This document shows positions 38,879 through 42,027 of a stretch of 64,000 bases of DNA, piece after piece. Position 1 is the first letter of the stretch; each line of letters starts with the position of its first letter. The DNA comes from Candidatus Latescibacterota bacterium (GTDB lineage: Bacteria > Latescibacterota > UBA2968): positions 1 to 64,000 of the forward strand of contig JAJDYX010000055.1 of the NCBI GenBank assembly GCA_022824945.1. Reading direction: 5' to 3'. A program made the position numbers and the translations under genes. The notes beneath the pieces were generated by a model that saw nothing but the letters and a program-made list of their open reading frames with translations, ran no database searches and had not been told where the DNA came from.

Positions 38879-39550
38879 ATGGACGGCATTCACGACATGG
38901 GCGGGATGCACGGATTTGGTCCCATAGAGCGCGAAGAAAACGAACCCCTATTTCACCACCCCTGGGAAAGCCGGGTACTCGCCATATCCGTAGCCACACC
39001 TGTACCGATCCCCGGAGGCTCCCGCAACAATATCGAAAACATGGATCCCGCGCACTATCTCTCATCCAGCTACTACGAAAAATGGCTGTACTCCCGTATC
39101 AAAGGACTGATCGACGCTGGCGTGCTAACCCCGGAAGAAATGGAAAAGCGGATGGCACTCTTCCGTAACGACCCCAATGCCGAAACCCCGGTACATCCCG
39201 ACCCCGATGCCGTCCGAGCGGAACTCGTGCGATCGCGTCCTGCTACCCCTCCCCAACAGAAAATGGACATCCAGCCGCAATTTTCCAACGGCGACCGCGT
39301 AAAAGCACGCAATATCCACCCCAAAGGTCATACCCGGCTCCCTCGATACGTGCGGGGCAAATACGGCACAATCACCAATTACTACGGCATCTACAATCTC
39401 CAGGACGCCGAACTGCCCACAGAGTGTACAAACCGCCAGCAACCTTTATACGCCGTGCGCTTTGAAGCCTCGGAACTTTGGGGTAGTGACGCCGAAACAA
39501 AAAGTGCCGTCTATCTGGATATGTGGGAAAGCTATCTGGAACCCATTTAA
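38879..39550 (+). CDS. nthB: Nitrile hydratase beta subunit
   Basis: A 223-residue beta subunit opening with the family signature MDGIHDMGGMHGFG. It has the HPWESRVLAI segment containing a conserved active-site Arg, and the C-terminal SH3-like barrel (FSNGDRVKARN, RLPRYVRGKYGTI, LYAVRFEASELWG). With the alpha subunit it hydrates nitriles to amides. Beta preceding alpha is the order typical of cobalt-type enzymes. AGGAG lies before the ATG. The enzyme is probably cytoplasmic. Confidence 0.93.
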   Translation: MDGIHDMGGMHGFGPIEREENEPLFHHPWESRVLAISVATPVPIPGGSRNNIENMDPAHYLSSSYYEKWLYSRIKGLIDAGVLTPEEMEKRMALFRNDPNAETPVHPDPDAVRAELVRSRPATPPQQKMDIQPQFSNGDRVKARNIHPKGHTRLPRYVRGKYGTITNYYGIYNLQDAELPTECTNRQQPLYAVRFEASELWGSDAETKSAVYLDMWESYLEPI

Positions 39551-39579: not shown

Positions 39580-40173
39580 ATGAACACAACTGCCCAAACC
39601 GACACTGCCCTGCGCACCAGAGCACTCGAATCGCTCCTCATCGAAAAAGGATTGCTTACAACGGAGATTATAGACGAAATCGTAGAAAAATACGAAAAAG
39701 ACGTAGGTCCTCTCAACGGCGCCAAAGTGGTTGCCCGTGCCTGGACTGACCCGAACTACAAACGACGGCTACTGGAGGATGGCAGAGCGGCCATTGCCGA
39801 ACTCGGTTTTGACAGCGCGCACGGTGCCAAAATCGTCGTACTGGAAAACACATCAAACGTCCACCACCTCGTCGTCTGCACCCTGTGCTCCTGTTATCCC
39901 TGGTCTGTACTCGGCTTGCCTCCGAACTGGTATAAATCCTACGCGTACCGATCTCGAGCCGTGCGAGAGCCGAGAGCCGTCTTGCTGGAATTTGACCTTA
40001 ACCTGCCCGATACCGTAGAAATCCGCGTCTGGGACAGCAACTCGGACCTCCGCTACATGGTCTTGCCTGAACGCCCTGCTGGCACGGAGGACTACACCGA
40101 AGAACAACTCATCTCACTTGTCACGCGCGACTCAATGATCGGCGTCGCCAAAATCGAACCGCCCGCAAAGTGA
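39580..40173 (+). CDS. nthA: Nitrile hydratase alpha subunit, cobalt type
   Basis: A 197-residue alpha subunit. The metal-binding claw is V-C100-T-L-C103-S-C105, followed by [14 protein letters not shown]. Threonine at the second place marks the cobalt type; iron enzymes have serine. Two of the cysteines are normally oxidised to sulfinic and sulfenic acids. The extra families sharing this claw include thiocyanate hydrolase gamma. The separate beta subunit and accessory gene favour nitrile hydratase. It starts 29 bp after nthB. Confidence 0.93.
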
Positions 40174-40180
40174 GGCCGGA

Positions 40181-40531
40181 ATGACGCAAAAAACCGACAA
40201 AAAAATCGCCACCATGGACGCACAAATCGCCCTGCCCAGAGAAAATGGAGAACTCGTTTTTCAGGCACCCTGGGAAGCACGCGCTTTCGGCCTTGCCGTT
40301 GCACTCAACGAAAAAGACCTCTACGAATGGCGTGAGTTCAGTTCCCAATTGGCTTCGGAAATCGCGGCAGCAGAACAAAACAACGACCCATCGAGCTACT
40401 ATACCCGATGGGTCGCTTCCCTCGAAGAATTGGTCATTGACAGAGGCTTGATCAGCCGAGAACAACTGGACGCCAAAACAGCGGAATACGCCTCTGGCAT
40501 TCACGATCATCACGATCATCACGATCACTAA
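40181..40531 (+). CDS. Nitrile hydratase accessory protein with His-rich tail
   Basis: A 116-residue activator of the P14K/beta-like accessory type. The core aligns with the beta-subunit N-terminal region (ENGELVFQAPWEARAFGLAVAL, then SYYTRWVASLEELVIDRGLI). These proteins assist metal insertion and cysteine oxidation. Unusual here is the C-terminus: the last 14 residues include eight His and four Asp in an H-D-H-H pattern. This is a ready-made metal-binding tail that could store or deliver cobalt. The gene follows nthA after 7 bp. The tail is encoded by a CATCACGAT-type microrepeat. Confidence 0.88.
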   Translation: MTQKTDKKIATMDAQIALPRENGELVFQAPWEARAFGLAVALNEKDLYEWREFSSQLASEIAAAEQNNDPSSYYTRWVASLEELVIDRGLISREQLDAKTAEYASGIHDHHDHHDH

Positions 40532-40590: not shown

Positions 40591-42027
40591 TTATCGCTCT
40601 CGCCCCGACACAAACAAATCGTAAGAATTTGACTGCCAGCCGCCATCATTTACAATCCCATCATTCGTATCTCTCAGCCATTTGACCATGCGATCCTTCA
40701 TGCGCCTGAGCACATGTTTGTACCCCAACTTAGGAGCTAAATTGTGCAACTCCCCGGGATCACTCTCCAGGTCGTAGAGTTCATCTTCACTACACGGATT
40801 GTAGATATACTTCCACTTTCTGGTCTGCACCATCCGAATCGTACACAGTGCAGGCTCGTACCCGTGATGCTCTGCAAAAATATCCTCTCGCCAATCCGAT
40901 GGCGTCTCCCCGCGCAGTAAGGGCAGCAAAGAACACCCATCGACCCTATCGGGAATATCCGCACCCGCCATCTCGAGAAACGTCGGCATAATATCGACCA
41001 GACTCACAAAATCATCGCAAACACGATTGGGTTCAACAACACCCGGCCAACGGATCGCCAATGGAATCTGGTGCGTCTCGTTGTACATATTCATCATCTT
41101 ATTGAACAAGCGGTGACTGCCCAACATATCGCCGTGATCCGAACTGTACAAAATCACCGTATTATCCAATTGCCCCGTTTTCTCTAAAGCATCTAAAACG
41201 CGCTTCACCTGATCATCAATAAACGTGCAATATCCCCAATACGTCGCGATCACCTTCTGCCAATCGGGCCAGGTCAAATGGCTGGCATTCCACCTGAGCA
41301 TTTCCTTTTGCTGAACACTTGGTTTATCGACAAACTGCTCGTCGAAATTGATCCAGCGTTCCACAGTATCGGGATCGTACATTTCATCGTAAGGCTCCGG
41401 CACACTATAGGGAAAATGCGGTCCAAAAAAGCTGCTGCAAATCATAAAAGGTTTATCGCCCTCACAAAATCCTTCAATCAGATCAATCGTCCTATCCGCA
41501 GTCCAGTGCTCCTGCATATACTCGGCGGGCAACTGCGACCGCCCGCAAAAAGGCGCGTCACCTCCCCATTCCATGCGCTGAACTTCCTGTACATATCCCC
41601 AATCAAAACCCGCATCGCGCACACTCTGGTTCCAATCGCGCGTCCTATGCCACGGATCAAACCCCCAAAATTCGCTATCGCCCTCCCTGGGCAAATGCCA
41701 CTTCCCCACATAACCGACATTATAACCTGCGTCAGATAAAATCTGCGGATATGCCGCCTTATCCAGAATATTCAAATCAAAAGCCCGATTGAAATTGCCC
41801 ATATTCGACAACTGCCCGTGATTGTGCGGAAACATCCCCGTAAGCAGTGACCCCCGCGCGGGAGAACAAAGCGCGATGGGCGTATAAGCCCGGCAAAAAC
41901 GCATGCCCTCTCTGGCAATGCGATCAATCGCTGGCGTCTTGCACACCGCATTGCCATTAAATCCCAGCGCATCGTAACGCTGCATATCGGTAAGCAAAAA
42001 AAGGATATTGGGTCTCTCAGTATTCAT
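40591..42027 (-). CDS. Type I sulfatase (formylglycine-dependent)
   Basis: A 478-residue sulfatase. The calcium-site opening is NILFLLTDMQRYDALG, and the modification motif is C54-S-P-A-R58-GSLLTG. YSSDHGDMLGSHRLFNK follows, with the metal and sulfate-binding residues. No signal peptide is seen. It is the last gene of a leftward group that also has an MFS transporter. AGGAGG lies before the ATG. Its sequence is clearly different from the sulfatase at 10392, so the two probably have different substrates. Confidence 0.9.
   Translation of the reverse strand: MNTERPNILFLLTDMQRYDALGFNGNAVCKTPAIDRIAREGMRFCRAYTPIALCSPARGSLLTGMFPHNHGQLSNMGNFNRAFDLNILDKAAYPQILSDAGYNVGYVGKWHLPREGDSEFWGFDPWHRTRDWNQSVRDAGFDWGYVQEVQRMEWGGDAPFCGRSQLPAEYMQEHWTADRTIDLIEGFCEGDKPFMICSSFFGPHFPYSVPEPYDEMYDPDTVERWINFDEQFVDKPSVQQKEMLRWNASHLTWPDWQKVIATYWGYCTFIDDQVKRVLDALEKTGQLDNTVILYSSDHGDMLGSHRLFNKMMNMYNETHQIPLAIRWPGVVEPNRVCDDFVSLVDIMPTFLEMAGADIPDRVDGCSLLPLLRGETPSDWREDIFAEHHGYEPALCTIRMVQTRKWKYIYNPCSEDELYDLESDPGELHNLAPKLGYKHVLRRMKDRMVKWLRDTNDGIVNDGGWQSNSYDLFVSGRER

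Follow-up and report, generated by a model that had tools for sequence, protein, structure and literature searches.

A His/Asp-rich tail on a cobalt-type nitrile hydratase accessory protein and the shifting position of such tracts among its relatives

The window analyzed here is the whole 64,000-nucleotide stretch (positions 1 to 64,000) of contig JAJDYX010000055.1 from a Candidatus Latescibacterota bacterium. On its forward strand it carries a nitrile hydratase (NHase) operon in the order beta-alpha-accessory. The first gene encodes the beta subunit (38879..39550, 223 aa; TIGR03888 212 bits against a cut-off of 152, with matches to PF02211 and PF21006) and the second the alpha subunit (39580..40173, 197 aa; TIGR01323 300 bits, cut-off 250; PF02979 293 bits). 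In translation, the alpha subunit has no His tract at its N-terminus and contains the metal-binding motif VCTLCSC (39874..39894), so that the first-pass annotation was right to call the enzyme cobalt-type. Seven bases separate the alpha stop codon from the start of the gene for an NHase accessory (activator) protein (40181..40531, also on the + strand, 116 aa; TIGR03889 nitrile_acc 76.7 bits, cut-off 46; PF21006 52.7 bits), which was also recovered, at 77.3 bits, in a TIGR03889 model search of the organism's own genome. The downstream neighbor (40591-42027) lies on the opposite strand, and the genome holds one NHase alpha gene.

Judged by its sequence, the gene at 40181-40531 is that of a genuine Co-type NHase accessory protein of the P14K/NhlE type; proteins of this type are the self-subunit-swapping chaperones of Co-type NHase. 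The likeness to P14K, NhlE and NhhG lies in the TIGR03889 score, the position after alpha and beta, the Co-type enzyme (CTLCSC) and a predicted fold like that of the beta N-domain. The window protein differs in ending in a His/Asp tail and in lacking the TPHGxPIxL of the alpha-first forms: the TPHG motif of that P14K subtype, seen in 55 surveyed accessory proteins, is absent from its C-terminus. A domain search of the protein found no G3E GTPase domain with CXCC (CobW/COG0523), and the genome has no clear COG0523 member, its three PF02492 matches looking UreG-like, Era-like and SRP-like by eye.

The tail, HDHHDHHDH (40502..40528, + strand), is made of two full CATCACGAT units with partial flanks. 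The reading frame ends in EYASGIHDHHDHHDH followed by the stop codon, and its last nine residues are six His and three Asp, fewer than the eight His and four Asp that had been counted in the last 14. At the His frequency of the organism's own genome (0.0258), the probability of at least six His in nine positions is ~2e-8. The background was taken from 427 kb of own-genome stretches with 319 gene-like ORFs, none of which has more than three His in its last 12 residues and four of which have three. The His codons of the tail are a mix of CAT and CAC, with no single pure repeat. An origin of the tail by chance or low complexity was ruled out by this genome background together with the codon differences among relatives described below.

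The named relatives are Latescibacterota MAGs, some of them labeled Gemmatimonadota. All eight same-genus genomes that have the gene carry the tail, counting the window's own genome, six more and a single contig fragment; those of the relatives take the forms HDHHDHHHGH, HDHHDH, HDHHHDH, HDDHDHHDH and HDHHDHHHDH. The tail is therefore neither missing from all close relatives, a possibility that the first-pass annotation had named, nor unique to this genome. Further off in the class the tails read HDDHDH, HDEHGH, EDDHHHHH, DDHSHDDDHHHP and DDHHHH, and the feature is kept across the rest of this class of Latescibacterota down to a minimal DDHAH-type end, with two members having just two His (L013, DDEHRH; L016, HEDHDRV). 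His/Asp ends persist in the class down to ~50% accessory identity. Tail lengths vary between species by whole codons, in frame, and within the genus the aligned tail codons have 38 third-position differences against 8 at first or second positions, the codon pairs dividing into 36 synonymous and 8 non-synonymous. These in-frame length changes and the third-position excess make a read error or a neutral microsatellite unlikely, and the independent genomes with their differing in-frame tails rule out the sequencing or assembly error that had been suspected in the microrepeat.

Two further observations concern the C-terminal region. In one locus (L025; G043:C95, ~323073-323405) no stop codon follows the His tail of the accessory protein, DDHGHDHDHPHEHHHHY, which continues in frame into a lipoprotein-like ORF, giving an open frame of 286 codons in all; a fusion, a lost stop and a frameshift are each possible. 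Separately, a C-terminal His corresponding to H113 of the window protein (alignment A3) aligns in at least 90% of 29 accessory proteins, in a part of the alignment that is loose, and is found as TPHG in Proteobacteria and DDHxH in Latescibacterota; it is possibly a shared functional residue.

An AlphaFold (AF2) model of the window accessory protein, built with an alignment of 29 natural relatives, contains four helices at residues 30-107, with a pLDDT mostly of 81-91 over the block. The tail is modeled with low confidence (mean pLDDT 48 for residues 111-116). The top 29 Foldseek matches are all subunits of NHase or thiocyanate hydrolase (SCNase), the best being NHase beta subunits and thiocyanate hydrolase, with probabilities mostly near 1.00 and TM scores of 0.45-0.62, and E values of only 0.05-0.5. 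The PF21006 match, the model and Foldseek all point to a fold like that of the NHase beta N-terminal domain, and the tail is most likely, on the model, an unstructured extension on this beta-like domain.

To place the tail in the wider family, we read the alpha N-terminus and the accessory C-terminus at 118 NHase-type alpha-subunit loci from Latescibacterota, Pseudomonadota and Cyanobacteriota and from named plasmids, including those of Actinomycetota, Bacillota and Haloarchaea. A tract was scored when 12 residues reached the threshold of 3 His; start sites were set by rule, with a hand list for ~20 loci, so that individual assignments may be wrong. Of the 118 loci, 103 have an accessory gene but lack a gene for a CobW-type GTPase, and in these operons a His/Asp tract is nearly universal: it lies on the alpha N-terminus only in 58, on the accessory C-terminus only in 28, on both in 8 and on neither in 9. 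The last two counts rule out strict mutual exclusion of the two positions. The accessory tail is thus no oddity of one protein, as had been implied; what stands of that description is a His/Asp, and probably metal-binding, tail on a Co-NHase activator.

The usual accessory C-terminus in proteobacterial alpha-first operons is TPHGxPIxL with no tract, and the alpha subunit there starts with MSHDHDHHHHDHDHSELSE or similar. The statement that typical P14K-type activators lack such a tail therefore holds for most alpha-first activators, but it misses the tract that is usually on the alpha N-terminus there. The P. putida alpha subunit in PDB 3qxe has an N-terminal SHTHDHHHDG, and the gamma subunit of a thiocyanate hydrolase begins with MAKKQKNDGHDHQHGGHDHS. 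Beta-first operons often carry the tract at the C-terminus of the accessory protein, as in Latescibacterota, Streptomyces (GHDHRHDHDHPHSH), Haloarchaea and Stutzerimonas. This arrangement is seen in 25 of the 39 non-CobW beta-first operons, so that an accessory tail as the rule for beta-first operons is only partly true. Gene order and tract location correlate, with exceptions in Halalkalicoccus, Parageobacillus and genus g14. In the majority of Rhodococcus operons the tract is slight or lacking (none that is clear in L190, L200, L202 and L204). Two plasmid loci, from R. leguminosarum (L203) and Planktothrix (L196), have split beta genes without an accessory gene in the vicinity, and both of their alpha subunits have a His-rich N-terminus (MSEHEHGDHDHGDDDDH and MQDPSPHNHHEHE).

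Two loci of the survey stand somewhat apart. A divergent cyanobacterial relative (L149; G596:C111) has CTVCSC in place of CTLCSC; its accessory protein contains a stretch very rich in His, DDNHDHHDHSHHHRHHHHHHSDK. At L136 (G081:C1:3152100-3152327) the accessory match spans an in-frame TGA, and the protein is cut short after ETVLQRKGLA.

One beta-first Co-type clade, whose beta subunits start MKLQHxLGG, has no tract on either alpha or accessory protein. Just upstream, all 12 of its sampled operons have a gene for a CobW/COG0523 GTPase with CXCC (Pfam check on four). The association amounts to about one event, because this is essentially one clade (L132, L142/L235, L143, L147, L148, L150, L151, L205 and L207-L210). 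Several of its operons adjoin CbtAB, NiCoT or ECF-type metal transporter genes, and its row L151m has the motif VCSLCSC. In three cyanobacterial genomes (L147, L148 and L151) two NHase operons lie on opposite strands at a distance of ~10 kb, of which one is alpha-first with a split beta and short His tracts, the other beta-first with the CobW GTPase. A COG0523 activator, Nha3, has been described for Fe-type NHase (PMC2770081); the MKLQHxLGG clade, in contrast, is Co-type and yet has a CobW/COG0523 gene. The one Fe-type operon examined (L211) has the COG0523 gene and no alpha tract.

The negative association between the alpha and accessory tracts in the 103 operons is strong when taken at face value (Fisher p 1e-10), a figure that ignores descent and is inflated by relatedness. 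We therefore examined it on a tree inferred with IQ-TREE from alpha cores, the tract itself being left out; this is a quick tree with a midpoint root. It requires no fewer than 10 changes of state for the alpha tract and no fewer than 14 for the accessory tract, and the starred branches alone force 4 changes for the alpha-only class and 5 for the accessory-only class. An independent-pairs test, underpowered with just 4-5 pairs, gave no support either way. Independent contrasts gave r -0.20 (p 0.006), and in a Pagel-type test the dependent model beat the independent one with LR 13.3 at threshold 3 and 16.0 at threshold 4, values reached in 0 of 60 simulated nulls at each of the two thresholds; results were similar without long branches. 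When the CobW clade was left out of the contrasts and the Pagel-type test, L142 was left out too. In the fitted model, the rate of gain of the accessory tract is ~3 when alpha lacks a tract, against almost zero when alpha carries one, and the alpha tract is lost faster where the accessory protein carries one. The two positions evolve non-independently, though more weakly than the raw association suggests, and we regard the evidence as good but not final because the tree is quick and midpoint-rooted. The clearest local switches are in the window's own class, where the alpha subunit of genus g14 has MSHPHHDHHHDHESP and its accessory protein a short DDHAH end, the window's genus showing the reverse, and in Haloarchaea, where the tract is on the accessory protein in L191 and L193 and on alpha in L199.

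Several known systems bear on these tracts. The alpha N-terminus of alpha-first Co-NHases (P. putida, 3qxe) and the thiocyanate hydrolase gamma subunit have a similar repeated H/D tract in the same enzyme family; being part of the catalytic subunit, the alpha-borne tract is retained in the mature enzyme, whereas that of the window is on the chaperone. The fused beta-alpha NHases of Monosiga, Thecamonas and Sphaeroforma likewise combine a His-rich tract with a Co-type enzyme, with the difference that the tract lies between subunits of one polypeptide. No activator is known for the fused eukaryotic NHase. The His stretch between beta and alpha in Monosiga, to which the first-pass annotation had pointed, is real, and the His-rich linker of opisthokont NHases was already known (PMC3323583). 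The convergent built-in metal supply read into it is weakened, because metal is reportedly incorporated without any need for the (His)17 linker (Yang 2018, as cited in PMC7193024).

Terminal or internal His tracts are also found on the metal-maturation proteins HypB, UreG, UreE and CobW (the G3E family and partners; COG0523), which are GTPases or dedicated metal binders, whereas the window protein has no GTPase domain. In the absence of UreE, UreG acquires a His stretch (PMC2770081), a documented compensation to which the alternation between alpha and accessory protein can be likened. The window's own genome encodes a UreG-like protein (L232; G000:C36:73595-74110) with a His/Asp N-terminal extension, MHNHHDDHHDHDHSHEP, that resembles the UreE-compensating UreG forms of that study. 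His tracts on metallochaperones, UreG/UreE compensation and the opisthokont linker are thus already known, and His-rich metallochaperone tails are a known kind of feature; in the open literature, subscription papers being outside the search, we found no earlier description of the accessory tail, of a general alpha N-terminal tract or of their alternation.

In P. putida and R. rhodochrous, activator and alpha subunit form an alpha(activator)2 complex with subunit swapping (PMC3511329). It is this complex that receives the cobalt, not the apo-enzyme, and the loaded alpha subunit is then exchanged (PMC3511329; summarized in PMC7329996); the cobalt-loaded complex of P. putida is alpha(P14K)2, with an alpha subunit that starts GQSHTHD (PMC3511329). 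The composition of the tail on a Co-NHase activator suggests that it is probably metal-binding. The reading we favor, with some confidence, is that it serves the alpha(accessory)2 maturation complex as a metal-holding arm, one that either partner can carry. On the established route of maturation, alpha(chaperone)2 takes up Co2+ first and the loaded alpha is swapped into the enzyme afterwards; on the favored reading, the disordered HDHHDHHDH tail would hold metal as a flexible arm; and a His/Asp arm on either partner would raise the local Co2+ concentration beside the CTLCSC site. Cobalt binding by the tract, and its action within alpha(chaperone)2, are inferred from the sequences. Both alternative tract positions lie in that complex, and which partner carries the tract would therefore matter little; such an arm would account for a tract that sits on alpha in most lineages, on the accessory protein in this one and several more, seldom on both, and that is missing in the clade with a CobW/COG0523 gene. 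The three arrangements (alpha arm, accessory arm and CobW gene) may be functionally equivalent.

Some reports run against this reading. That the Monosiga (His)17 is reported as dispensable, and that most Rhodococcus operons have no clear tract, speaks against the tract being essential. The window tail is acidic or neutral, whereas positive charge, along with flexibility, matters at the P. putida P14K C-terminus according to the title of Liu 2014 (cited in PMC4709657). B. petrii P14K with a C-terminal His tag had comparable activity (PMC4761151), which indicates that a tail is tolerated in that protein and is no proof of benefit.

Unlikely, but the most serious of the alternatives, is that the tail binds metal (Ni, Co or Zn) as a general store or buffer, or as a guard against the wrong metal, with no role as a delivery arm and with a location that is incidental, both termini being flexible. 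His-rich extensions occur on many metal proteins, including L232; deletion of the His-rich region of CbiX-L left cobalt insertion unaffected (PMC7689651), and the reported dispensability of the Monosiga linker points the same way. For a pure store, however, there would be no need to occur in nearly all Co-NHase operons or to switch between the partners of one complex. We consider rather improbable a structural or assembly role, for instance in docking the chaperone to alpha in a pH- or metal-dependent way or in its release on swapping, in place of metal supply: the nearby aligned His and the reported importance of P14K C-terminal flexibility and charge (Liu 2014) would fit such a role, which leaves unexplained why an alpha His/Asp tract should replace the accessory one. 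Whole-codon length variation between species would fit slippage of the CATCACGAT unit, but a functionless, slippage-prone CAY/GAY repeat at a permissive C-terminus is very improbable given the third-position bias, the persistence of His/Asp ends across the class, the mixed His codons and the absence of comparable ends among the other ORFs of the genome.

Beyond the metal-holding arm, we suggest only tentatively that each Co-NHase system depends for its maturation on one metal-acquisition element, which has moved repeatedly in evolution, appearing as an alpha arm, a chaperone arm, a eukaryotic His linker or a CobW GTPase, the window representing the chaperone-borne form. Co-NHases are industrial makers of acrylamide and nicotinamide. 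Self-subunit swapping covers the exchange of the loaded subunit and leaves unsettled where the cobalt comes from and how it is chosen over other metals. The tract may have stayed in the background since the much-studied Rhodococcus enzymes are among the exceptions; being near-universal, switching polypeptide and absent beside a CobW GTPase gene, it points to a missing step in the maturation of these enzymes.
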